Below the pieces are notes generated by a model that did no database searches, was not told the DNA's origin, and saw only the letters and a list, made by a program, of their open reading frames with translations. From a virus, in IMG/VR virus record IMGVR_UViG_3300017770_000222, positions 1 to 21,024 of that record: a stretch of DNA of 21,024 nucleotides. One strand, 5' to 3'. Of the stretch, positions 3,570-17,417 are shown piece by piece. Position 1 is the first letter of the stretch. Every line of letters starts with the position of its first letter. The position numbers were made by a program, and so were the translations under genes.

Positions 3570-3861
3570 ACAGTTTCGTTATCCGAATCTGTAAATTATC
3601 AATGCCTTTAATCAAACGATGGTATTCACCTTCTTCGATCTTAAATCTTATTCCTGGTTCTAATAACAATGGTAAACAATTTTCTGGTTGAAATTGCCAA
3701 CCATTTCCTGATATAACTTCAACCATGCGGTCTTCTTTATCTCTGTGCCAAACAAACTCTGCCTGATCTTCATTAATATCAAATGTACGAATATCACCAA
3801 TATCCGTATATGGCTTACCAGAAATAACTACCACCTCCCTTGAGACCAAGTTCCTTTGCAT
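3565..3861 (-). CDS. Cupin-like small protein; start uncertain
   Basis: The confident part begins near YTDIGDIRTFDINEDQ and continues with AEFVWHRDKEDRMVEVISGN, GWQFQPENCLPLLL, GIRFKIEEGEYHRLIKG and a final LQIRITKL. The order (WHRD motif, G-W-Q-F, LLLEPG, YHRLI) looks like a single small beta-barrel of the cupin type, with His residues that could bind metal. Related proteins occur in T4-like phages; the substrate is unknown. The given start is the ATG at 3861, which overlaps the preceding gene by 47 bases and has a poor ribosome site. A strong AGGGAGGT site at 3833 to 3840 points instead to a start near 3825, where only ATT is in frame at good spacing; that would give about 86 residues. The frame stays open further upstream to 4062, but that extension runs inside the better-supported upstream gene. 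Confidence 0.75.
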   Translation of the reverse strand: MQRNLVSREVVVISGKPYTDIGDIRTFDINEDQAEFVWHRDKEDRMVEVISGNGWQFQPENCLPLLLEPGIRFKIEEGEYHRLIKGIDNLQIRITKLL

Positions 3862-4186
3862 ACTTAGGTAATCGACAGGCCCAGTATCCTGCAGACATTT
3901 TATCTGTTTTAGTATCGCAATTGTGTCTGCTTGCGAAATTCTTAGCTGCGTCTCTATCATTGATTTTAGCAGTAAGCCCACCTTTCTCATCACCGAACTC
4001 AATCTTTTTGATATTACCTGTGTCAGGGTTTCTAACATAGACAACATACTTCTTATCTCCACTCGAACGTTTAGGTGTATTTAATTCTGGTTCTTCTTCC
4101 AATTCAATCATAGGGCTTTCTAAAGGAACAGTAACTCCTTCATATAATCCAAAGCCTTCATGTTTCCACTCTGTAAATTTTTTCAT
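3815..4186 (-). CDS. Leader-bearing basic protein with YWACRLP motif
   Basis: A 123-residue protein. The N-terminus MKKFTEWKHEGFGLYEGVTV has the MK-x-F leader and an LYE/G site at residues 14 to 17 that fits T4 gp21 processing. After an acidic linker comes a compact domain starting KKYVVYVRNPDTGNIKKIEF, then GDEKGGLTAKIND, AAKNFASRHNCDTKTDK and GYWACRLPKYAKELGL, ending GGGSYFW. The RHxC...YWxCR pattern is a phage domain family I have seen in many T4-like genomes; the Cys and His could bind metal. No enzymatic role is known to me. Its ATG shares one base with the stop of the RimK-like gene (TAATG), indicating coupled translation. Packaging in the head is inferred from the leader. Confidence 0.8.
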   Translation of the reverse strand: MKKFTEWKHEGFGLYEGVTVPLESPMIELEEEPELNTPKRSSGDKKYVVYVRNPDTGNIKKIEFGDEKGGLTAKINDRDAAKNFASRHNCDTKTDKMSAGYWACRLPKYAKELGLKGGGSYFW

Positions 4187-5640
4187 TAGTGATCCGATTT
4201 GTCGTTTCTATCTGTTTTGTTTGATAATATAAATCGTCTGTTTGGATTGACTGCAATTTTGAACTTAGTCATTAACTTTCTATTCACTAACATTTCTGAT
4301 GCAGTATCTTTTAATGACAACGCGATTTCAGCAATATGTTTCTTGTTATTGAAAAAGATCTCATGTTCAACTACAGGTCTTGTATCAAATGGTTTTTGAC
4401 CACGAGTTGGTTTTGAGACATATATTACTTCACTCTCAAACTTATAACCGTTCTTTTCCCAAAATACCTTTTTACCTTTTGTTTCCATTTTATCAACATG
4501 GAGCATACTTGCCTTTGCACTGTTACCAGAATCAAACTTTGCACGTACAGGATTCTTTTCCATACCTTTAAATATAATCGTTTCAATATAACCTGCTTCT
4601 TGTCTAAAGATTGGTCTTCTATTGACATCCTTAGAAAAGAATTGTATAATTGTCTCTACAACTTTCTTATCAGATACTTTACCTTGTTTCTCTTCTGTCC
4701 AAGGATCGTAACCTTCAAAGTGAGAACGAATACCTGGAGAACCATTTACTTCAATAATATAAGGATTACCTTTCTTATCAACAAAATGATCTACTCCACA
4801 ATATACAGCTCCTGTTGCTCTTGCGGCTGCTTTAATTACTGCGATCTCTTTCTTTGATAAATCGTATGGTTCTGTTGTTGCACCTTGGTGAACATTGTTT
4901 CTAAAGTCTTTGTTATCTGGTGCTTGTATTCTTTCTGCTGCTGCAATAATTTTACCACCAACAAGTAGTGTACGAATATCTGATTTCATTTCAAAGAATT
5001 CTTGTATTAATAAATCAGCATCGTATTTCCATAACGATTGACATACACCTGTTAAAGATGACATACTATCAATCTTCATTACACCAACACCTTGAGTACC
5101 TTTTAGTGTTTTAACAATAACAGGGAACTTTCCACCAACTCGTTTATGAGCGTCTTCAATTGAATGTTCGTTGGGTATAGATGATGTTCTTGGAATCGGT
5201 ATATTATTACGACCTAACAATAATGCGTTGGACATTTTGTTATCGCAAACTAACATAGATTCTAAATCATTAACAAGTAAGAAACCAATATCCTGTAGAG
5301 AAGATACGAATGCTTGAGAGGTAAGCGTTCCGATTGCACCTGCTCTTACAAATACAATTGAGTTATGAGTTTCTATTTCAATATCTTTATTCTTGCCGTC
5401 AATATTACGAATCTTTACAGTTCCAATATCAATATCGGAATCGGCAATCCATGCTTTTGATATATCAACGAAATCAAATTTAATATCTCTCTTAACAGAA
5501 ACTTCTTCAACAATATCAGCAAAGGTTCCGTCACCATCTCCTGTACCTAAGACAACCACATGCAGTTCGTTATAAGGAACAACTTCTGCTTCTTCCTCGA
5601 GAGGGAGTGGGTTTCTTCTGTACTCAGATATAGATTTCAT
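4186..5640 (-). CDS. RimK-like ATP-grasp ligase fused to RimB-like aspartic protease domain
   Basis: Two domains in one chain of 484 residues. Residues about 25 to 340 are an ATP-grasp ligase of the RimK type: the ATP-binding segment FPVIVKTLKGTQGVGVMKI around 172 to 190, LLIQEFFE near 210, and the metal-binding end YIIEVNGSPGI near 294 to 304. RimK adds glutamate to the C-terminus of ribosomal protein S6. Residues about 350 to 475 match the RimB/zinc-protease-annotated retropepsin-like family that trims such glutamates, with VRAKFDSGNSAKASMLHV at 365 to 382 holding the likely catalytic Asp370 in a DSG motif. The protein starts MKSISEYRRNPLPLEEEAEV, a weaker form of the shared leader with an LEE site at 14 to 16. 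The start lacks a clear ribosome site. The target protein is unknown; S6 or another host protein is possible. Confidence 0.88.
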   Translation of the reverse strand: MKSISEYRRNPLPLEEEAEVVPYNELHVVVLGTGDGDGTFADIVEEVSVKRDIKFDFVDISKAWIADSDIDIGTVKIRNIDGKNKDIEIETHNSIVFVRAGAIGTLTSQAFVSSLQDIGFLLVNDLESMLVCDNKMSNALLLGRNNIPIPRTSSIPNEHSIEDAHKRVGGKFPVIVKTLKGTQGVGVMKIDSMSSLTGVCQSLWKYDADLLIQEFFEMKSDIRTLLVGGKIIAAAERIQAPDNKDFRNNVHQGATTEPYDLSKKEIAVIKAAARATGAVYCGVDHFVDKKGNPYIIEVNGSPGIRSHFEGYDPWTEEKQGKVSDKKVVETIIQFFSKDVNRRPIFRQEAGYIETIIFKGMEKNPVRAKFDSGNSAKASMLHVDKMETKGKKVFWEKNGYKFESEVIYVSKPTRGQKPFDTRPVVEHEIFFNNKKHIAEIALSLKDTASEMLVNRKLMTKFKIAVNPNRRFILSNKTDRNDKSDH

Positions 5641-6510: not shown

Positions 6511-7059
6511 TTATCCTCCGAATTCGTGTCCTGCGACTCTCTTCATTTGTTTCTTAAACTCAGCAAAGTCAGGTTTTGATTTATATAATTTAATTGATAG
6601 ATGGTCTTTATCTTTGCCTTTAATGCGCCAATTGTAACCATCCTTCTTATGTTCTGGTTTTGTTGTTTTTACAACACGTCTTTGGAATCCATCTTCCCAA
6701 GATTCGGATCCTTCTGATAATTGTTCATCAACCATCAAAGCTAAGATATGGGAATCTAATCCATACTGATTCGCAATCCTGCCTGCATAATATTCTTTTC
6801 CGTGCCTTGGTTTAGGACCATGCTTATACATGATTTCTTTTACTTTAGCAACAGCTTGTCCATACTTCTTTTTAAATATAGTATCAGCTGCAATCTTTTT
6901 AATTACTTGCTGTGTTGTTAATTCTTCAGTTTGATTTTCTTCAGGTACGCAATTAGGAACCATCTTGTTGCCTTTCTTTTTCATGCCTACTTTTTTGTAG
7001 CCAACCCAGCAACCGTCTGCTTCTTCAATAGATTCTAAAATGTCTCTGAAGGTTTTCAT
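6511..7059 (-). CDS. Leader-bearing late protein with CW-GY-PNC motif
   Basis: A 182-residue basic protein. It opens MKTFRDILESIEEADGCWVG, very close in pattern to the T4 internal-protein leader MKTYQEFIAEA, with an IEE/A site at residues 11 to 14. Directly after it comes CWVGYKKVGMKKKGNKMVPN followed by CVPE, a two-Cys motif I have met in several proteins of T4-like marine phages, possibly a small metal or disulphide knuckle. A helical centre follows (IKKIAADTIFKKKYGQAVAK, then KYGLDSHILALMVDEQ-like helices), and the last 50 residues form a beta/alpha part containing YNWRIKGKDKDHLSIKLY and FAEFKKQMKRVAGHEFGG. The function is unknown. The likely mature protein after cleavage would start right at the Cys motif, which supports the leader being a removable propeptide. 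Confidence 0.8.
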   Translation of the reverse strand: MKTFRDILESIEEADGCWVGYKKVGMKKKGNKMVPNCVPEENQTEELTTQQVIKKIAADTIFKKKYGQAVAKVKEIMYKHGPKPRHGKEYYAGRIANQYGLDSHILALMVDEQLSEGSESWEDGFQRRVVKTTKPEHKKDGYNWRIKGKDKDHLSIKLYKSKPDFAEFKKQMKRVAGHEFGG

Positions 7060-7063
7060 ATTT

Positions 7064-7615
7064 CTATTTAAGCCTTACTGAATAAACAAATGGTCTTTTA
7101 GGATCTGCTTGACCTACTCTAACTGCTTCACCGTAATATAAATCTATTGGGTTATTAGTATCTAACTCATTAGGTTGTATATCTTTTACGGATTGACCAC
7201 CAGCAATTTCTTTTTGAATTGCTATAGAAGTATCTTTTGCGAATTTAGTATAGTTTTTACAGAATTCTTTAGAAACTTGAAGCTGTTCTTTCATAGTTGT
7301 TTCAGCATCTTCTAAATTTTCTGCCGTAAACGAAAGTAGGATCTTATCTCCACTAATTTTCTGCGTGGTGCCTTCGGATTGTAAATCAAAATAACTAGAT
7401 TGAAGTCCAATTAAAGTTGATTCATAATCATCTCTTGCTTGTTGCGCTTCAAAAGCTTTTAGATTCTTACAGCCTTTAACCTGAAACTCAAGGTCAAACC
7501 CTCTTGCTTCTGTTAAAGCATTACGCATTCTCTCGTATAACTCTTTTTCTAATTCTTCTTTTACCTGAAGTGGCTTATTAGCAATAGCATCTTCAATTAT
7601 TTTTTTAATACTCAT
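7064..7615 (-). CDS. Scaffold-like late protein with helical propeptide
   Basis: The ATG at 7615 is preferred over one 24 bases further upstream, as it has AAGGA eight bases before it and follows the upstream stop without overlap. This gives 183 residues starting MSIKKIIEDAIANKPLQV. The first about 37 residues form one amphipathic helix ending ELYERMRNALTEARGF; this resembles short helical segments on prohead core or cargo proteins of T4-like phages, and the LTE/A site fits gp21 cleavage. The remainder is a mixed globular protein with KGCKNLKAFEAQQARDDYES, KISGDKILLSFTAENLEDAE and a C-terminal LYYGEAVRVGQADPKRPFVY. The function is unknown. It could be a core, scaffold or internal protein. Confidence 0.78.
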   Translation of the reverse strand: MSIKKIIEDAIANKPLQVKEELEKELYERMRNALTEARGFDLEFQVKGCKNLKAFEAQQARDDYESTLIGLQSSYFDLQSEGTTQKISGDKILLSFTAENLEDAETTMKEQLQVSKEFCKNYTKFAKDTSIAIQKEIAGGQSVKDIQPNELDTNNPIDLYYGEAVRVGQADPKRPFVYSVRLK

Positions 7616-7619
7616 TTTA

Positions 7620-8294
7620 TTATCCTTTATATTTACCATCTACGATGTCGTTAAATAATTTTTTAACTGCTGTTCTTGCGGCTGCAGGACCAACTTTATA
7701 TTTCTGTTCTAAACTTTTAGAGATACCTGTTAAACCAGTAATACCATCAGAACGACCATCTTTCATAAAGTCCATGATATCTTTTTCTAATTGTTTTTGA
7801 TTTGGTAAACTTTCGTTGATTTCTTCTTCAACTTCGTCTTCCTTAATTAGTTTATCTACATTCAGACCGCTTTTAAGATTACCTTTACTATCTATTGCCT
7901 TAGGATACATTTTAGCAATTAGATCATTATAACCTACAAGTATATTTAATAAGTCAGCTTGGATTTCTTTTGTTGAAATACCTCTAATTACTTTCTTAAC
8001 TGCAGCGAGGTTACCTTGAGCAAGAGCACGAGATACTGCCTGATAGTCTTTCTTATCTTGACCGGTTTCTTTATTAGAGAGTCTTGCTACATTCTTAGTA
8101 GCTAAAGTTAAGTCTTGATTGTAATTTTCCATAACGACAGTATGTGGTCTTCCATTGATATGAACAATAGGATTACCATTCTTATCTACGTTACCGTCCC
8201 ATACTCCGTCTTTATGAGCCTTTCTGGCTTTCTTAACAAGAGGGTGAGTTTCTAAACTCCTTACCTCAGCTAACGATTCTCTAAATGATTTCAT
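7620..8294 (-). CDS. Leader-bearing late protein, paralogue of the upstream neighbour
   Basis: A 224-residue basic protein starting MKSFRESLAEVRSLE, with an LAE/V site at residues 8 to 11. Residues 17 to 55 hold HPLVKKARKAHKDGVWDGNV and DKNGNPIVHINGRPH, a segment I have seen in other T4-like phage proteins. Residues about 62 to 133 are a helical domain with KETGQDKKDYQAVSRALAQG, ISTKEIQADLLNILVGYNDL and KMYPKA. This domain is clearly shared with the product of the next gene upstream, so the two arose by duplication. The C-terminal 60 residues look like a small helix-turn-helix-like unit (GLTGISKSLEQKYKVGPAAA), which could bind nucleic acid. There is only a weak TGGA ribosome site, and it starts 2 bases after the upstream stop. 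The function is unknown. Confidence 0.8.
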   Translation of the reverse strand: MKSFRESLAEVRSLETHPLVKKARKAHKDGVWDGNVDKNGNPIVHINGRPHTVVMENYNQDLTLATKNVARLSNKETGQDKKDYQAVSRALAQGNLAAVKKVIRGISTKEIQADLLNILVGYNDLIAKMYPKAIDSKGNLKSGLNVDKLIKEDEVEEEINESLPNQKQLEKDIMDFMKDGRSDGITGLTGISKSLEQKYKVGPAAARTAVKKLFNDIVDGKYKG

Positions 8295-8296
8295 TA

Positions 8297-9163
8297 TTAT
8301 CCAAACCTCTTTGCGAATGTTTTAAGATCAATAGTTTCAATAGAACCAAACTCATCAATTACTTTATACATAAGTTTGCCTCTCATATCAATTGCCATTG
8401 CCTGATAATATTTGGTTCCAGATCTTAAACCGCTAATCTCTGAACCGTAAATATTTAAATGTTTAATCTGTGGGGCTTTTTTAATTTCTTGAAGTTCAGC
8501 ATCTTCATCAAACATACCTGAAGCTTTCATCATGGCAAGTGCATCTTTCTTTGCCTTTTCCATATTTTGCTTATTCATTTTTTCAACGGCTTTCTTAATC
8601 ATAGCAAGTCTTTTCTTTTTATCCTTTTCAGACATTGCTTCATCAACTTTACCGTATGTAATACAAGGATCTTGACCACAACCACAATTCTTTTCTTCTG
8701 GAAGTTTCATTGCGAATTGTTGATCATCTTCAACTTTTCTTGCGAATTGAACAACGTATTGTCCTGGTTTTGCTTTTGGGTACATCTTTTTAAATACTTC
8801 TTCATGTCCCATAATAAACGACACGAGATCTTCAATAATAACAGTATCAAGCTTTGCCATATACTTAGCAGCTTCTTTGTGTTTATTTTGAGATATCATT
8901 TTAGCAACATTTTGAAAATCACGTTTATCACCACCTGTCTCTTTACGAGCAGCGTCGTTAATTTCTTTTGCTAAATCTTTGGATTCTTTTGAAAGGTTTT
9001 CGCTGATTACATCAACGCCTTCTAATACTTCTCTGAATTTTTTCATTTTTCGTTTCCTTGCTGGTTTCTCTGCCGGAGTATCTGTTTGTAATTTGGCTCG
9101 AGCCTTATCGGTTCCCCAATCTCCAGCTCCACCAGTTTCGTTTATATTATTTATATCATCCAT
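8297..9163 (-). CDS. Late protein with internal leader start; paralogue of downstream neighbour
   Basis: The frame begins at the ATG at 9163, which abuts the TAG of the upstream gene, giving 288 residues. Residue 40 is a second Met at 9046 that starts MKKFREVLEGVDVISENL, the same leader type as its neighbours, with AAGGA eight bases before it and an exact late box about 100 bases upstream. The short form would have 249 residues. Residues 58 to 131 share a helical domain with the 224-residue neighbour (KETGGDKRDFQNVAKMISQN, KKMYPKAK). Then come a Cys cluster NCGCGQDPCITYGK near 160 to 173, a Lys/Met-rich helix and a beta-rich C-terminus (GTKYYQAMAIDMRGKLMYKV). The function is unknown. The Cys cluster might bind zinc. 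Both long and short products could be made; the short one would be the form with a packaging leader. Confidence 0.8.
   Translation of the reverse strand: MDDINNINETGGAGDWGTDKARAKLQTDTPAEKPARKRKMKKFREVLEGVDVISENLSKESKDLAKEINDAARKETGGDKRDFQNVAKMISQNKHKEAAKYMAKLDTVIIEDLVSFIMGHEEVFKKMYPKAKPGQYVVQFARKVEDDQQFAMKLPEEKNCGCGQDPCITYGKVDEAMSEKDKKKRLAMIKKAVEKMNKQNMEKAKKDALAMMKASGMFDEDAELQEIKKAPQIKHLNIYGSEISGLRSGTKYYQAMAIDMRGKLMYKVIDEFGSIETIDLKTFAKRFG
9055..9059 (-). promoter_or_regulatory. Ribosome site for the internal start at 9046
   Basis: AAGGA lies eight bases upstream of the in-frame ATG at 9046 inside the 288-residue frame. The outer ATG at 9163 has no comparable site. This supports initiation at 9046 to give a protein beginning with the capsid-targeting-like leader. 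Confidence 0.6.
9148..9155 (-). promoter_or_regulatory. Possible late promoter TATAAATA inside coding region
   Basis: An exact late box within codons 3 to 6 of the long frame. A transcript from it would begin downstream of the ATG at 9163 and could only yield the short product from 9046. It lies in coding DNA, so a chance match in AT-rich sequence is quite possible. Confidence 0.45.
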
Positions 9164-10942
9164 CTATTTAACTTTATCAGCCAAGTCTTTATCAGCTTTA
9201 CCCCAAGTACCAGGTGATTTTGTAGCAAAACTATTTACTCTTGCCAATCCCCATTGTACTGGAGTTGTACCAGGTCTATGGCCTGTTCTCCAAGCAGCAA
9301 CACCACGATCAAACACTTTCTTCAATATTGCATAAGGCATTCCTGATTTCTCAGCCTTATCCTTTAATGATTTTTCAGGGTTTGATTTTTCAGATACAAA
9401 TTCTACTTGCTCCATCAAATCATATAGTTCGTTAATTCTGTTTTCTGTAATTTCAGATTCAACTTCGGCACGCTGTTTTTCTAATGCTTCCATTTCTCTG
9501 GCTTTACCATACATCTTGAATCTATAATCAAAATTAACTGTATTATCTTGTCTTAATAATTGGTGTGGTCTTTTTAAACCTGCACGTTCCATATTACGGT
9601 TAACGGCTTCACCAAACATTTTCTTAAATTTGTTTGAATGCTTAGATGGTTTTGTTTTAGCTTCTGCATCACCAGGAGCAGGTTCATAAGCTTTTGGATT
9701 GTCATCGTCCATCTTTGTCTTTTTATTAAAATGGGCTTGACGTTTATCTTTAGTAGAACCGCCTAGATCTTTATAATATCCAGGTTGTTGTTTTTGTTGT
9801 TTTGATTCTTTATCAGCTTCTTTTTGTAATCGTTCTTGAATAGATGCTGCTTTATATAAATGTTGATTTGTTTCTTCGTTAGCAGTTCTTAAAGCCTTTT
9901 GAACTTCAGGATGCTTTGATAAATTTCTTTTGAGTTTATCAATTTCTTTAACTGCATAATTCATATTACCTGCTAAATCCAAAGCAAGCTCAATTGCTAA
10001 CTTAACATTCTTATCTCTATCTGCGGCTGATTTAGATCTTGGATTCTTTTTATAATATTGAGCAACTTCTGCGCCTGTTAGTTTTTGTTTACCCATTGGT
10101 GATAAAGGATCTACTTTACCATCTTTAACTCTTTCAGCAAGGAATTGTTGAACAGAGAAGTTTAATGATTCGGATAAACCTAAACCTTTACGAACATCAG
10201 CGTATAGGTCATTCTTTAATCTTGCGTTACGTCCTGGAATACCTTTAAAGAATAAAGCAGTTTCACCGTCTGCGGCTGCTGCTCTTACCTTACTTGCTGA
10301 CATACCTGAAACATCATCAGAATCTGGATCTCTATCACCTGCCGATACAACCTTAATAGAATTAAATGTATAATCCTTTCCGTTATATTTGTTTAATAGT
10401 GTTTCAAATTCTCCAGTTCTATCAGAACCAACAACGAGAACAAGATCCTTAAAGCCTGCCTTTTGTAATTCTTTTGCTACTTCAATAATTGTTCTTGCGG
10501 TTGATTTAACAACTAATCTTTTACCAAATAATGTTTGTGCATATTTGATTTTCTGATCGTATGTTAATGGATTCTTTTTAGCATCTTGTGTTCTTGATAG
10601 GTAAACGTATGGAGTACCCTTTTCTGATATTGCTGTTGAGATAATCTTATTAACTAATTTCTCATGTCCTACGGTTGGAGGATTCATTCTTCCAAATGTA
10701 ATAACAGCTTTATCTTGAACAGCTTCTTTAATCGTAGGTTCGGTATCTATGAATTTATCCGCATCAAAGCTAGTCTTGGAATCTTTCTTAATAATTCCTT
10801 TACCAGTATCTTGGTCTTTCTTTTTATCTTTGCGCTTTTTGATATCTTTATTATCCTTGGCAACTCCGCTATCTTGATCGTTATAATCGTCGATAGAATC
10901 TTTTGCCATGGATGTTGCATCTTTTTCGTTTAAGCGATCCAT
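9164..10942 (-). CDS. NMNAT-like nucleotidyltransferase fused to phage C-terminal domain
   Basis: A 592-residue multidomain protein. Residues 1 to 73 are a charged, disordered-looking stretch ending TEPTIKEA, an IKE/A site fitting T4 gp21 cleavage. Residues about 78 to 235 are a nucleotidyltransferase of the HxGH family: VITFGRMNPPTVGHEKLV at 80 to 97 has the T-x-G-H form of the motif, LVLVVGSDR is at 166 to 174, and MSASKVRAAA at 213 to 222 matches the C-terminal ISxxxxR-type motif. Such enzymes join a nucleotide to phosphate-containing substrates (NMN, pantetheine phosphate, glycerol or choline phosphate); the substrate here is open. A long charged helical middle follows, then a compact C-terminal domain at about 519 to 592 with GVAAWRTGHRPGTTPVQWGL and ARVNSF, resembling the phage domain DUF5824. 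A late promoter precedes it. It may be packaged, though it lacks the MK-x-F start. Confidence 0.85.
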   Translation of the reverse strand: MDRLNEKDATSMAKDSIDDYNDQDSGVAKDNKDIKKRKDKKKDQDTGKGIIKKDSKTSFDADKFIDTEPTIKEAVQDKAVITFGRMNPPTVGHEKLVNKIISTAISEKGTPYVYLSRTQDAKKNPLTYDQKIKYAQTLFGKRLVVKSTARTIIEVAKELQKAGFKDLVLVVGSDRTGEFETLLNKYNGKDYTFNSIKVVSAGDRDPDSDDVSGMSASKVRAAAADGETALFFKGIPGRNARLKNDLYADVRKGLGLSESLNFSVQQFLAERVKDGKVDPLSPMGKQKLTGAEVAQYYKKNPRSKSAADRDKNVKLAIELALDLAGNMNYAVKEIDKLKRNLSKHPEVQKALRTANEETNQHLYKAASIQERLQKEADKESKQQKQQPGYYKDLGGSTKDKRQAHFNKKTKMDDDNPKAYEPAPGDAEAKTKPSKHSNKFKKMFGEAVNRNMERAGLKRPHQLLRQDNTVNFDYRFKMYGKAREMEALEKQRAEVESEITENRINELYDLMEQVEFVSEKSNPEKSLKDKAEKSGMPYAILKKVFDRGVAAWRTGHRPGTTPVQWGLARVNSFATKSPGTWGKADKDLADKVK

Positions 10943-12335: not shown

Positions 12336-13006
12336 TCTACGCCTTGGTGATATTGTTTTGTTGTTCTTGACATTGAAGGTGCTTGATCGAGAGCAGTTGA
12401 ACCCCAATGTTGTTCTGCGTATATTTTACCTGGGCCATCATATCTTGGATAACCTGGTCTAAACCATTGAGGTATAAACATATAAGATGGAAAGATATGT
12501 AACATATGACGAGTGTCATCTAATAATCTTGCTAGGAAAAAGTTTCCTGTAGATTCGTGTGGCTTTGGATTTAATTGATTTGGTTTGAGAGTATGTAGTT
12601 TTCTCAATATAACATCAAGGAATTTATTACCTGGGTTTGCTGCCATGATAGGAGATATAGATCTTGGTATTACATCTTCCTTTTCAAATACAGTATATGC
12701 AAGGTTTGGATCTTCTACAAATAATTCATCTACTCTATGATAACATTCTGAATCTGCTTCAGGCCAAAATCCACCTCTTTCATATATTAACTCATAACGA
12801 ATTAAATCTGCTACTCCTGCCCAACAACGTTGCCTGTAGTACTCTTCAATTAAATGTTGATTGTACCATTTACGCTTATGTAACATTTCATCTGTGAAGA
12901 CTGAGTATTCCCAATCAGGATGTTTATTAGGCCATGTATTCATCCACTTCAATGGAGCAGGATTAGGACCAATCCAAATGTGAGTCATCTTCTTCTCAAT
13001 GTTCAT
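12332..13006 (-). CDS. GT32-like (DXD sugar-binding) glycosyltransferase
   Basis: A 224-residue protein of the OCH1/GT32-like family. It opens MNIEKKMTHIWIGPNPAPLK, the characteristic I-P-x-x-I-H-x-I/W-G start, followed by a strand DWEYSVFTDE. The central signature ADLIRYELIYERGGFWPEAD at residues 66 to 85 fits the family's S/A-D-x-x-R-Y-x-x-L-x-x-x-G-G-x-Y-x-D-x-D, except that the first Asp of DXD is Glu (EAD at 83 to 85). The rest includes PGNKFLDVILRKL and a His/Trp-rich C-terminus ending EQHWGSTALD. It would use a nucleotide sugar to glycosylate an unknown acceptor. It is cytoplasmic with no signal peptide. It overlaps the kinase gene by ATGA and the sulfotransferase by ATGA, so all are translated together. 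A second Met at residue 7 is an alternative start. Confidence 0.85.
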   Translation of the reverse strand: MNIEKKMTHIWIGPNPAPLKWMNTWPNKHPDWEYSVFTDEMLHKRKWYNQHLIEEYYRQRCWAGVADLIRYELIYERGGFWPEADSECYHRVDELFVEDPNLAYTVFEKEDVIPRSISPIMAANPGNKFLDVILRKLHTLKPNQLNPKPHESTGNFFLARLLDDTRHMLHIFPSYMFIPQWFRPGYPRYDGPGKIYAEQHWGSTALDQAPSMSRTTKQYHQGVE

Positions 13007-13536
13007 AATCTTTTAATGTATCTCATTGCTGCAGCTGCGTTATCATTAGAGTCTAAATTTATATATCCGATATTAAGTCGGTCAAACTGTTCTATAATTG
13101 CGTCATCAATTTCTTTACATTCTTGAAGATCTTGAGCTCGACCTTGTTGGTCAAAATCCTCAGGTCTTGTTAACATAAAGTTAATATTATAATCGTATAA
13201 GCAATAACACTCAAAAGCCATTTGGTCAATTAGATCTGAATAGATTGCTTCACCGTATCTCTCACGATATATTGGACTTAAGAGTACAGGACTATCGGTA
13301 ATAATATAATCTACCTTATCGGATAATCGTAATATCTTTCTGTGTTGATGACCGAGTACCCAAAGTTGATCTGCCAACATTGGTATGTTACCTTCCCATA
13401 CGCACTCTTTAGCAAACTCATCTGTCAGTTCGACATTGTAGCCTGCGATTTTCATTTGATAGAATAAACCTGCAGCAGCGGTTGATTTACCAGATCCTGG
13501 TCCGCCGTAAAAGTTTATGACTGTGACGTCTTTCAT
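13003..13536 (-). CDS. P-loop kinase-like protein, NadR-kinase-like
   Basis: A 177-residue P-loop NTPase. The Walker A motif is FYGGPGSGKSTAAAGLF at residues 9 to 25, followed by a strand and acidic turn (YNVELTDEFAKE), and a Walker B-like segment KVDYIITDSPVLLSPIYRE. The layout and the size resemble the kinase half of NadR (ribosylnicotinamide kinase) and related small phage ATPases; this is a similarity of plan, not a confident assignment. It is the first gene after a consensus sigma70 promoter, with AAGGTG about eight bases before the ATG. It overlaps the next gene by ATGA. Given the NMNAT-like domain encoded downstream, a part in NAD salvage is possible, as is a role in making activated precursors for the glycan genes that follow. 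Confidence 0.8.
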   Translation of the reverse strand: MKDVTVINFYGGPGSGKSTAAAGLFYQMKIAGYNVELTDEFAKECVWEGNIPMLADQLWVLGHQHRKILRLSDKVDYIITDSPVLLSPIYRERYGEAIYSDLIDQMAFECYCLYDYNINFMLTRPEDFDQQGRAQDLQECKEIDDAIIEQFDRLNIGYINLDSNDNAAAAMRYIKRL

Positions 13537-13598: not shown

Positions 13599-13834
13599 CT
13601 GATTCCTTGACTGTTCCTATAATCATAGAAGTCTTTATTTACTTCACCTGCGATTGCTGTCTTGCCTGTTTGTCGACATTTAATATAAGTCTTTTGAGTT
13701 CCACCGCCTGGTTTAGTAAATGTTCTAACGCCTGCGGAGATCACTCCTGGAGTATCAGAATAAGTATCAGCTGCAGTTGCCGCGTTGTCGTATTCCCATG
13801 CTCCATTGCTTCCTGGTATTGTTACGAATGCCAT
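13595..13834 (-). CDS. Small conserved phage protein, 79 aa
   Basis: The frame is open to a GTG at 13846, but the ATG at 13834 is preferred: AAGGGTGG lies eight bases before it, and it shares a base with the upstream stop (TAATG). The product, MAFVTIPGSNGAWEYDNAAT onwards, is a beta-rich small protein with a TYSDTPG turn, GVRTFTKPGGGTQKTYIKCR and a C-terminal EVNKDFYDY. Proteins of this size and pattern occur widely in T4-like marine phages; I know of no assigned role. It has a single Cys, no membrane segment and no signal peptide. It is the last gene of the first late block, directly before the sigma70-driven cassette, whose promoter overlaps its stop codon. Confidence 0.8.
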   Translation of the reverse strand: MAFVTIPGSNGAWEYDNAATAADTYSDTPGVISAGVRTFTKPGGGTQKTYIKCRQTGKTAIAGEVNKDFYDYRNSQGIS

Positions 13835-15066
13835 TATTTTTGCCACCCTTTAATATATTTGTCTGAGAAGTTAGCTTGACTGAATCCCATACGATCCACG
13901 ATCTTTAATGCGTTCTTACCATAATGGTCAATCGCAACAAATCCTTCTTGTCCTGTAACTTCAAATCCTTTTGTTGTTTTAAGTAAAGTACGAATGCCAC
14001 CAACAGTGTTTAATTTAGCAATGATAACATATTTCATATCAACCAAAAGGTCGTATAATGTAAATATCTGTTGAAGCTTTCTTTTGTTCTTTTTATCAAA
14101 GATTGCCAATACTGCTGTGGCTTTATCCATTTGTGTTTTCTTACCAGCTGGAGTCTTACGCTTATCTGCTTCTTTCTGATAATATTGTTGTATGTATTTT
14201 TGTAGGTCAGTAACGAAAGCGGCAACTCCACCGATACGTTGGCCATCACGTACTTTTGAATTAATAAATGTATTAATCTTTTGATTTAAATCTGCGTTCG
14301 TTCCAAGTTCATTTAGAATCTTTGCATCTACTGTTCTGAATATTGAACCTGCTTTTGATAACATTGCTGTAAGATTATCAGTTTCTGTCTTTGTCATTGT
14401 TGCTGAACCTGACTTATCTTCAAACGTTGCGTCTACGTGCCAGACGTTTTTAACTTTCGCAAGTTTTGTTGATATCGCCATTCCAAAACTTGCAGACATT
14501 GTTTCAAGAGTTGATCCTGCGTATGTTGTGTGCCAGACCACGCCGATCTTTGATCCTGAAATTTTCTTACCGAGATCTGATGTTTTAGGTACCGCGTAAA
14601 CAATGGTATTAGGATGGAAAGTAACACACGATTCTCCATCAATGTCTTCTGTTTTAAGATCGTCGTTCGTATATAAGAAATCACCTTGTACTACTCCTTC
14701 AATTCCAAGCTTGGCAAATTCTTTCAACGCAACTTTAAATTTGCTATTGAGTTCACCGCTTAGATCATTATCTATTTCTGCATTTGTTTTATATAATTTT
14801 GGAGATTTATTAAATACTCCTTTCTTGGCAACAAAGAACTTACCATCAGATGGATCAGTACCAGCAAAGATCGCAGGTGCACCATCCCATTTTGTTGTTA
14901 AACTAACTGGAGCTGTTGTATTGCCTGATAGCATATCACGCAAAGCTCGAAGGTAATTAATAACGTTTCTTGTACCAGTAACACCACCATCAATTACAGC
15001 ATCTTCCAAATGCGTCATATGTAGATTAGCATCGGCCTCTGTAAGGAATTCGTTAAATCTTTTCAT
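13834..15066 (-). CDS. Leader-bearing protein with ligase/nucleotidyltransferase-type KxDG motif
   Basis: A 410-residue protein whose leader MKRFNEFLTEADANLHM is the closest in the window to the T4 internal-protein leader, with an LTE/A site at 8 to 11. VSLTTKWDGAPAIFAG at 54 to 69 resembles motif I of the covalent nucleotidyltransferases (DNA and RNA ligases, capping enzymes; K-x-D-G), making Lys59 the possible nucleotide-linked residue. Further possible motifs are KFFVAKKGVF (76 to 85), EGVVQGDFLYT (123 to 133) and KIGVVWHTTYAG (173 to 184), in the same order as ligase motifs III to IV. The C-terminal half is helical and basic, with a phage-specific end GFVAIDHYGKNALKIVDRMG. An RNA or DNA end-joining role is plausible, but other adenylyltransfer reactions are equally possible. 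Its ATG shares a base with the kinase gene's stop codon. Confidence 0.82.
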   Translation of the reverse strand: MKRFNEFLTEADANLHMTHLEDAVIDGGVTGTRNVINYLRALRDMLSGNTTAPVSLTTKWDGAPAIFAGTDPSDGKFFVAKKGVFNKSPKLYKTNAEIDNDLSGELNSKFKVALKEFAKLGIEGVVQGDFLYTNDDLKTEDIDGESCVTFHPNTIVYAVPKTSDLGKKISGSKIGVVWHTTYAGSTLETMSASFGMAISTKLAKVKNVWHVDATFEDKSGSATMTKTETDNLTAMLSKAGSIFRTVDAKILNELGTNADLNQKINTFINSKVRDGQRIGGVAAFVTDLQKYIQQYYQKEADKRKTPAGKKTQMDKATAVLAIFDKKNKRKLQQIFTLYDLLVDMKYVIIAKLNTVGGIRTLLKTTKGFEVTGQEGFVAIDHYGKNALKIVDRMGFSQANFSDKYIKGWQK

Positions 15067-15926
15067 TATGTTTTAATCCTTAAGTTGCCTTTATGTTTAA
15101 AATCTATTTCTACCTTTCTTTTTACTTCCTTAGCAATATCTTTAAGAAGTTTTAAATCGTTCTTCATTACATCTTTCATTATCTTGTCTTTTACATCTTT
15201 AAGAATCATATCAATAATCAAAGCACGATTCATTGAAAGATCTGTACCTTCCTCAAGATCTAAATGTTCTTCTGCGTAAGACTTAATCCATTTCTTTGCT
15301 TTAGGATTTTGTATAACTTGTTTAGCAAATTTAGATGCCCACTTATATCCTGACATAACTCCTTTATCAAAATCAGCATCTTGGGAATTATCAATTACTT
15401 GAAAACTAGAACCAAACATACTTTGAAATGAACCGATGTTCTTTTGTACTTCTTTCCATAAAGTAATAACCTGAACTTTTGGTAATGATCTTGGTCTTGA
15501 GTCATTACGAGCAATCGCAGTATCTAAATCTGTATTAACATAAATCATTCCAACGTCATAACCAAGCGATCTTAATTCTTTTATTTGACCTTGTATCTTT
15601 GTTACATTCTTACCTGTACCATCAATAACTAAACCGAGACGGCCTGTAATATAACCTTGCATTTTCATAGCAGTAAGTTTCTTTGCCTTGTCTCTTATTT
15701 GTTGTCCTTGTGTTGAAAAGATAGTGTTAGGATCCATTGTTAGTTTAGCTTTGTTCATTGCCAACTCAAACGCATCGTCTGAATTAACAACTTTAAATCC
15801 AAGCGCGGGTAATCCTGTTCTACCAACAATAAAAGATTTACCTGAACCAGGTCCGCCTGCTAAAAAGATTGCTTTAAATATCGCAGGATCATTTGGTCCT
15901 TCATTAAATTCTTTAAAGCTTTTCAT
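15066..15926 (-). CDS. Leader-bearing P-loop kinase (zeta-toxin / polynucleotide-kinase-like)
   Basis: A 286-residue protein starting MKSFKEFNEGPNDPAIFKAI, combining the shared leader with an FNE/G sequence that is near the gp21 consensus. A kinase domain follows: Walker A FLAGGPGSGKSFIVGRTGLP at 21 to 40, VVNSDDAFE near 46 to 54 as in the zeta toxin and polynucleotide kinase group, GLVIDGTGKNVTKI around 97 to 110, and a lid-like stretch IARNDSRPRSLP with two Arg. The last about 80 residues are a basic helical tail (LLKDIAKEVKRKVEIDFKHK). It would phosphorylate a small molecule, nucleic-acid end or sugar nucleotide; the sequence does not decide which. It overlaps the upstream gene by ATGA and the ligase-like gene by one base, so the three are likely made together. 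Confidence 0.82.
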   Translation of the reverse strand: MKSFKEFNEGPNDPAIFKAIFLAGGPGSGKSFIVGRTGLPALGFKVVNSDDAFELAMNKAKLTMDPNTIFSTQGQQIRDKAKKLTAMKMQGYITGRLGLVIDGTGKNVTKIQGQIKELRSLGYDVGMIYVNTDLDTAIARNDSRPRSLPKVQVITLWKEVQKNIGSFQSMFGSSFQVIDNSQDADFDKGVMSGYKWASKFAKQVIQNPKAKKWIKSYAEEHLDLEEGTDLSMNRALIIDMILKDVKDKIMKDVMKNDLKLLKDIAKEVKRKVEIDFKHKGNLRIKT

Positions 15927-17374
15927 AATGAAATCTCTCCAGGTATATTAGAAGTAAACGATATTTGTAATCCAAGGAATTTCATTAAAGACCCAAACAT
16001 CTTTTTACCTAATGCTGCAATTTTACTCAAGATTGCTTTGACCTTTTTCAAAACTGCTGTGATTGCTGATTTAACTTTATTTAATAAGCCTGTACCGATA
16101 TTCTTTGCCGCGGCTGCCGCTTTCTTCAACATATCAAGAGGTCCTTCACAAAGATAATCTTCTGTTAATAAACCATTGACTGCACCAAGTTCTTCAAGTA
16201 CAACATCTCTAAAGGTTTGAGTATCTTCTTTAATACCCAATCTCAATGAAGAATATGCTGGAGCACCACCTCCACCTGATTTAAAGGCAACGTATGGTTT
16301 TACTGTAGTTGCATACTTTTTAATAATAGGATCATGAATATTATTGATTGGTTCTAATACAACCTTTCCACCAATTTCAAATTTACCTAATAGGTTAGCA
16401 GCTGCTCTTGATTGTGGTGAACCAAATTTATGATTACCTGTAGAAGCTTCTAATACAACATACTTAGAAAACATTTTGTTTGCTTCATTGTCTTGGTTCA
16501 TATATTGCATTAACATATCAGACAGTTCTTTATTTTGTTTATCCTTCTTTTGGAAATCAATAATTTCGTCTGTCTTTTCACCATCTTTTGCTTTTTGTTT
16601 TAAAGCAGTAACCGTTGTTCCTGATATTAAAGTATTCATCTTCTCTTCCATATTGGAGACAAGATCTGTAGCAAATTTCTTTTCGTTACCCATTTCAGTT
16701 AACGCAGCTTCTACAATTGCGATTGCTTCTTTCTTTTTGGCAGAAGCCAATTGAGAACCACCTGCTTTCTTTAATGATATCTTTTCTTTGAAATCAGAAG
16801 AAGCAATATCAGTCTTTGGAGTTTTATCTCTTGCTCCTTGTTTTGACCATATAGGTCCAAGACTAACTGAACCTATTGCACCACCTCTACCTGTTTGAAC
16901 TAAAGCTGCAGCTGACAATCCTTTCCCAAAGTTTTTAGCAATTTGTTCGGCCTGAGTTTGATACCCAGTCCAATATTTCATTGCCACTTCTTCTGTAGCA
17001 GGATCTGTCTTTTGGTTGTTTAAATTATTATAGGCAAATACAATAAGGTCTTCCCACTCTGCACCAGATGGCATTCCGCCACCTTCTTTATGTTGAATAA
17101 AGGAACTGGATTTATAACCGATACCGCCTTTTAAATGGAGTATTTTTCCATCAGGAGCTTTTAGAAACTTTTCGTGGGTTGCACTATCTTTGCCTACGAC
17201 AAGATCAGGTTTAGACGATGATCCTGTTACTTCGAATACATCGCCTTTCTTATAACCCATTTGAGTAAGCTCTGCGAAACCTTCACCTTTCCAAACAACC
17301 TTTGCACCAATGACATAGTCAGGTTTCATTATGGTTGCTTCAGCTAAATTGGCAAATGACTTAAACCTTTTCAT
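15923..17374 (-). CDS. Leader-bearing protein with nuclease-like core and cationic amphipathic tail
   Basis: A 483-residue protein starting MKRFKSFANLAEATIMKPDY, with LAE/A at 10 to 13 fitting gp21 processing. Residues 20 to 95 form a beta-rich N-terminal part (VIGAKVVWKGEGF). Around 104 to 215 is a pattern reminiscent of PD-(D/E)XK nucleases: an acidic helix GAEWEDLIVFAYN, then PKTDI at 186 to 190, then EKISLKKAGGSQLASAKK at 197 to 214, where Asp189 and Lys202 would be catalytic. This is suggestive only. From residue 411 to 470 there is an unusual Ala/Lys/Leu-rich stretch (MLKKAAAAAKNIGTGLLNKV and onwards) with about 12 Lys and one Asp, directly after an LCE/G sequence that could be a second protease site. 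A late promoter lies 36 bases upstream, so it opens the first late block after gp41. Confidence 0.78.
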   Translation of the reverse strand: MKRFKSFANLAEATIMKPDYVIGAKVVWKGEGFAELTQMGYKKGDVFEVTGSSSKPDLVVGKDSATHEKFLKAPDGKILHLKGGIGYKSSSFIQHKEGGGMPSGAEWEDLIVFAYNNLNNQKTDPATEEVAMKYWTGYQTQAEQIAKNFGKGLSAAALVQTGRGGAIGSVSLGPIWSKQGARDKTPKTDIASSDFKEKISLKKAGGSQLASAKKKEAIAIVEAALTEMGNEKKFATDLVSNMEEKMNTLISGTTVTALKQKAKDGEKTDEIIDFQKKDKQNKELSDMLMQYMNQDNEANKMFSKYVVLEASTGNHKFGSPQSRAAANLLGKFEIGGKVVLEPINNIHDPIIKKYATTVKPYVAFKSGGGGAPAYSSLRLGIKEDTQTFRDVVLEELGAVNGLLTEDYLCEGPLDMLKKAAAAAKNIGTGLLNKVKSAITAVLKKVKAILSKIAALGKKMFGSLMKFLGLQISFTSNIPGEISL

Positions 17375-17409: not shown

Positions 17410-17417
17410 TATTTATA
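17410..17417 (-). promoter_or_regulatory. T4-type late promoter TATAAATA
   Basis: An exact late box in the 50-base gap between the gp41 stop and the next ATG, at a usual distance for a T4 late transcript leader. It marks the switch from the replication block to the late block. Confidence 0.75.

Follow-up and report, generated by a model that had tools for sequence, protein, structure and literature searches.

Three overlapping genes of a marine T4-like phage encode a candidate head-borne payload of nucleic-acid enzymes

The window, meaning the whole stretch of DNA that was analysed, is a virus record of 21,024 bases whose gene content is T4-like and includes a DnaB-type helicase and a UvsX-like gene. 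IMG/VR contigs of this kind are fragments, start codons were picked by rule, and no tRNA genes were found in the 21 kb. On its minus strand lie three adjacent genes that overlap as originally predicted: the stop of the nuclease gene and the start of the kinase gene share an ATGA (15923-15926), and base 15066 is common to the kinase and DUF6267 genes (TAATG joint). The features are as follows.

17410-17417, minus strand: T4-type late promoter element TATAAATA, 43 nt before the nuclease ATG
15923-17374, minus strand: nuclease gene, an open reading frame of 483 amino acids
17339-17374, minus strand: nuclease leader MKRFKSFANLAE, of the capsid-targeting type, with a predicted cut after LAE
Nuclease protein, predicted domains: leader; SH3/FeoA-like domain at about 10-99; MspI-like restriction-endonuclease domain at 92-381; C-terminal helical tail
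Nuclease protein, predicted active-site residues: E108, D189, S200 and K202
16160-16168, minus strand: L403-x-E405 of the nuclease, ahead of the C-terminal tail; E405 is invariant
15066-15926, minus strand: kinase gene, an open reading frame of 286 amino acids
Kinase protein: GGPGSGKS P-loop, leader MKSFKEFNE and an additional C-terminal helical region
13834-15066, minus strand: DUF6267 (KWDGAP) gene, an open reading frame of 410 amino acids
15037-15066, minus strand: DUF6267 leader MKRFNEFLTE, with aromatic residues at 4 and 7, L8 and E10 as in T4 IPIII
DUF6267 protein, core: KWDG (K59), QGD (127-129), EGFV (374-377) and KIVDR (388-392), with a helical insertion at about 226-352

The trio had also been placed behind one late promoter, and this proved well founded. 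The element TATAAATA equals the T4 late-promoter consensus; the 8-mer occurs four times in the window against 2.4 expected, which is weak evidence taken alone. Its placement is nevertheless not a matter of chance, since 21 of the 37 nuclease homologues have it within 100 nt upstream (0.9 expected), mostly 37–44 nt from the start. Ahead of DUF6267 starts it is rare (6 of 86). We therefore interpret the three genes as a single late transcription unit.

The first protein of the trio had been noted for a D...xK nuclease-like pattern, and its predicted structure (pLDDT 82) indeed has a restriction-endonuclease core fold with a D...xK active site. In the VIA re-alignment, from which both the MspI matches and the ligase matches described below come, the model matched MspI with Z 9.9 over 196 residues (rmsd 4.1), the runner-up reaching Z 5.4. 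The pattern itself (D189, S200-L-K202) is kept in 34 homologues, as are E108 and TPKTD189 in the same 34-row alignment. With the MspI-like fold strongly supported and the active-site residues conserved, we place the protein in the nuclease (restriction-endonuclease) fold class with high confidence. A Pfam search gave no family match, BLAST against annotated phage records detected no relative, a sequence-profile search of solved structures returned nothing useful, and Foldseek found no significant match for the model in the PDB. Profile searches did pick up relatives in many marine viral contigs, in phage Melnitz and in Pelagibacter phage HTVC008M, and a viral structure library holds relatives of the fold from cyanophages. 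An amphipathic tail makes up the last 80 residues, and the conserved L403-x-E405 ahead of it is a possible second prohead-protease site. CCGG is avoided in the nuclease clade (0.60 vs 0.91 in others); general palindrome avoidance and kinship are confounding factors, so that we rejected this as a sign of MspI-like specificity, and as a hint of sequence-specific cleavage it is suggestive only. As a separate observation, GATC is nearly missing from the phage Melnitz fragments L033 and L035 (3 seen vs 87 expected), a depletion far stronger than most palindrome avoidance in related phages.

The identification of the GGPGSGKS protein as a kinase was borne out by profile matches above cut-off to PF06414 (Zeta_toxin; 34.3 bits, cut-off 22.3) and PF13671 (AAA_33; 29.3 bits, cut-off 27), and its membership of the P-loop kinase superfamily is almost certain. 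Its best solved relative by profile was Zeta toxin; a single-sequence search of solved structures found nothing. In T4 Pnkp, the P-loop is followed by a DxxR motif and lid arginines. The window protein has the P-loop and R140, R144 and R146, but carries an invariant NSD50xxxE54 where T4 Pnkp has DxxR. With DxxR replaced and Zeta toxin the closest solved relative, its identification as Pnkp was rejected, and the idea that it is a polynucleotide kinase is not supported. In related records the kinase domain also occurs in fusions: behind an NMNAT-like domain in two of them (L102 and L116), and joined in L130 to an NTP_transf_2 nucleotidyltransferase (above cut-off), a pairing that resembles RNA-repair sets (PMC7824862). 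When the kinase follows another domain, a VEE|G sequence lies internally at the same place, as ahead of the kinase domain in the L130 fusion (7461-9230), and a cut there would free the fused kinase domain. A second P-loop kinase near the trio (13003-13536, minus strand) belongs to AAA_28, with a thymidylate-kinase-like PHROG, and lacks a leader.

The KWDGAP protein, credited beforehand with ligase-type motifs, is a member of PF19782/DUF6267 (E 7.5e-107; phrog_455), a family present in more than 460 phage records, mostly of cyanophages, where it goes by the name T4-GC71; we found no publications on it in the open-licence literature. KWDGAP with Lys59, on whose conservation the original prediction depended, is invariant among 51 aligned homologues. 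So are K59-x-D-G, Q127-G-D129, E374-G and K388, which are kept in the aligned cyanophage copies too; they look like motifs I, III, IV and V of ligases. The predicted structure (pLDDT 85) shows a nucleotidyltransferase core broken by the helical insertion. Nearly all of the best 40–50 re-aligned PDB chains were RNA or DNA ligases, led by NgrRnl, T4 Rnl2, Trl1 and T4 Rnl1; ranks 1–20 were all ligases, but Z never exceeded 7.8, short of the value of 8 at which the tool deems a match reliable. Foldseek against the PDB gave no significant match for this model, and a sequence-profile search matched no solved ligase. From the invariant motifs and the list of structural matches, we consider that DUF6267 probably belongs, as a divergent family, to the covalent nucleotidyltransferase (RNA/DNA ligase) superfamily. 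In S-PM2 the annotation splits DUF6267 (L181 2998-4777), its motif IV/V half being joined to a cytidylyltransferase (S-PM2p139).

What unites the three proteins is their N-termini (MKRFKSFANLAE, MKSFKEFNEG and MKRFNEFLTE), all of which resemble T4 capsid-targeting leaders and mostly end in [L/I]xE. The T4 capsid-targeting sequence comprises ten residues, of which 4 and 7 mainly target and 8 and 10 process, and gp21 cuts it after L/I-x-E; T4 packs CTS-EcoRI and other foreign enzymes in this way (PMC9026906). The DUF6267 leader of the window conforms to this pattern exactly, and its E10 is at least 90% conserved. The window nuclease leader carries an insertion that puts LAE at 10-12, and the window kinase has FNE, not [L/I]xE, as its cut site; its homologues mostly have IxE or VxE. 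Under a strict leader pattern (F, Y, L or W, three on a hydrophobic residue, then [LIVFM]xE), leaders were found in 70 of 89 DUF6267 homologues (0.7 expected by shuffling), 17 of 37 nuclease homologues and 14 of 22 kinase homologues (fewer than one expected in each), and in none of the 71 controls (DnaB, 0/45; UvsX, 0/26). When the nuclease and ligase families were aligned locally by profile, only their leaders proved similar. The claim that all three genes bear leaders thus stands up across all three families. A gp21-family prohead protease (PF03420) is encoded in 10 of 11 related records; none was seen in the 21 kb window, which is a fragment. Five further minus-strand genes (796-1290, 3815-4186, 4186-5640, 6511-7059 and 7620-8294), one of which encodes a RimK-like ATP-grasp protein with a zinc-protease-like C-terminus, have leader-like MKxF or MKSI starts with [L/I]xE within 16 residues; the head cargo of the phage may be larger than the trio. 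The minus-strand gene at 9164-10942 encodes an NMNAT-like 'cytidylyltransferase' with a DUF5824 C-terminus. In L102 and L116 its relatives are fused to the kinase, and in S-PM2 a relative is joined to the C-terminal part of DUF6267.

Virion data exist for neighbours of DUF6267 in cyanophages; for the window phage or its close relatives we found no virion proteomics in the open-licence literature. The S-SM1 cytidylyltransferase that adjoins DUF6267 starts MKKFSAFLNEA and was detected in purified virions in one study (PMC3037559). In S-CRM01, a kinase two genes downstream of DUF6267 starts MISFDQFLSEK and is probably the kinase reported in virions by another (PMC10665884), which itself leaves undecided whether such proteins truly sit inside. 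Here the leader is itself an argument that these cytidylyltransferases and kinases do. The S-CREM2 virion proteome likewise includes a cytidylyltransferase. In the five cyanophages whose DUF6267 was inspected (P-HM2, S-SM1, S-CRM01, S-8S53 and ACG-2014h) the protein lacks the leader, and the family is therefore not inherently a virion protein. For the trio, the leader statistics and these precedents make carriage in the head likely.

We therefore favour, as the better-supported reading though by no means a settled one, that the trio are late internal-head-protein genes of a marine T4-like phage with a payload of nucleic-acid enzymes: a nuclease of MspI-like topology, a Zeta/AAA_33 P-loop kinase and a DUF6267 enzyme of the ligase superfamily. 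Judging from the signals and their T4 precedents, each protein would enter the prohead core by means of its leader, which a gp21-type protease would then cut off, and the mature enzymes would be ejected with the DNA at infection; since each bears the predicted head-loading leader of T4-type phages, the virus probably injects them together with its genome. What they would do there is far less certain. The nuclease may act against DNA of the host or of rivals on entry, and the ligase-like enzyme, helped by the kinase in phages that have one, may mend broken nucleic-acid ends, with RNA a slightly better candidate than DNA.

The original prediction went further and considered the trio as a possible end-processing system, expecting the three genes to co-occur. 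In such a single coupled pathway the nuclease would trim or cut, the kinase phosphorylate 5' ends and DUF6267 seal, all as infection starts and with entering DNA or host-damaged RNA as the substrate. The overlapping genes speak for it, as does their order, which is constant in the lineage of the window, and all three genes are found at 13 of 48 non-redundant nuclease loci, many of the others ending early. Overall, the expected co-occurrence is mixed: most relatives either lack the kinase or encode it at another site (a distant one in phage Melnitz), and in one record (G003) the nuclease and DUF6267 are 32 kb apart. Restriction-type cuts, moreover, leave a 5'-phosphate, so that no kinase would be needed, and functionally unrelated neighbours bear the same type of leader, so that a shared location in the head does not show joint action. 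Kinase-NTP_transf_2 fusions and leader-bearing HAD phosphatase-like genes directly upstream of DUF6267 (L045 5396-6001 and L058 5384-6004) do resemble RNA-repair sets. With a kinase in some lineages only, changing DUF6267 partners and unrelated leader-bearing neighbours, a single coupled pathway is not supported, and we regard it as unlikely.

Across more distant relatives, DUF6267 is preceded by genes of differing families, yet these are often nuclease-like and many have leaders: a D..xK-type motif occurs in 42 of 78 genes directly upstream, compared with 184 of 712 background open reading frames (26%), an enrichment that is not blind, as the regular expression was written after some upstream genes had been read. 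Two upstream families match type II restriction-enzyme profiles. Compared by profile with the window nuclease, the upstream families that differ from it mostly gave no match. The nuclease nature of these non-homologous genes, which thus rests on motif enrichment, the two profile matches and inspection by eye, is weaker than that of the window gene. Together with the leaders, the enrichment and the restriction-enzyme matches favour a real nuclease-DUF6267 association, one that counts in favour of the coupled pathway. A related reading, equally doubtful in our view, is a head-borne cut-and-seal kit of marine T4-like phages in which a rapidly exchanged restriction-type nuclease would be coupled to DUF6267 as a conserved ligase family not described before, and would act on nucleic acids at DNA entry, sometimes joined by a kinase and a nucleotidyltransferase.

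An alternative confined to DUF6267, and one that we find improbable, is that this ligase-superfamily nucleotidyltransferase does not ligate but transfers a nucleotide onto proteins or, in capping-like fashion, onto the ends of RNA. Such a role would fit a protein in which no C-terminal OB or Rnl-type domain was recognised, a large helical insertion separates motifs IIIa and IV, and motif III is QGD, not GE; its top structural matches, however, are RNA ligases and not capping enzymes. That the proteins are made late and act in the infected cell, the leader being a common N-terminal oddity and not a head address, is least probable: leaderless cyanophage copies among replication genes do show that such enzymes can work in the cell, but the residues of T4 IPIII at 4, 7, 8 and 10 are kept across highly diverged proteins of three folds, the leader is absent from DnaB and UvsX, and leader-bearing neighbours were found in virions.

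If our preferred reading of a late, head-borne enzyme payload is true, the principle of the T4 internal proteins, one conserved head address with exchangeable cargo, reaches catalytic nucleic-acid enzymes in phages that are very abundant in the ocean. It would also give DUF6267 a first functional frame, provide a simple sequence rule for predicting injected phage proteins, and possibly explain why cytidylyltransferases and kinases are repeatedly reported in cyanophage virions.

Among known systems, MspI and other type II restriction endonucleases share the fold and the E/D/xK active-site pattern of the nuclease, which differs in its added N-terminal SH3-like domain, leader and C-terminal tail and in having no methyltransferase partner within the window. 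The T4 tRNA-repair pair of Pnkp (PseT) and Rnl1 offers a parallel in that a P-loop kinase adjoins a ligase-superfamily gene; the window kinase, closest to Zeta toxin, lacks both DxxR and a fused phosphatase, and the trio includes a nuclease and is predicted to be head-borne. T4 RNA ligases 1 and 2, NgrRnl and the Trl1 ligase domain resemble DUF6267 in motifs I (KxDG), III, IV (EGxV) and V and in heading its fold list, but show no detectable sequence similarity to it, and DUF6267 departs from them in its QGD motif III and its helical insertion of about 125 residues. In cyanophages, the virion cytidylyltransferase (T4-GC190) and kinases come from the same gene neighbourhood and bear leaders; the available portions of the reports on them (PMC3037559, PMC10665884) do not name the leader and do not count DUF6267 or the nuclease among head cargo. 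With IPI, IPII, IPIII and Alt of T4 the trio shares a leader of about ten residues (aromatic at 4 and 7, L/I at 8, E at 10), transcription from a late promoter, a protease of the gp21 type, diverse bodies behind one leader and possibly a C-terminal cut like that of Alt. Whereas the bodies of the T4 proteins are inhibitors or an ADP-ribosyltransferase, those in the window are predicted to be a nuclease of restriction type, a kinase and an enzyme of the ligase superfamily.
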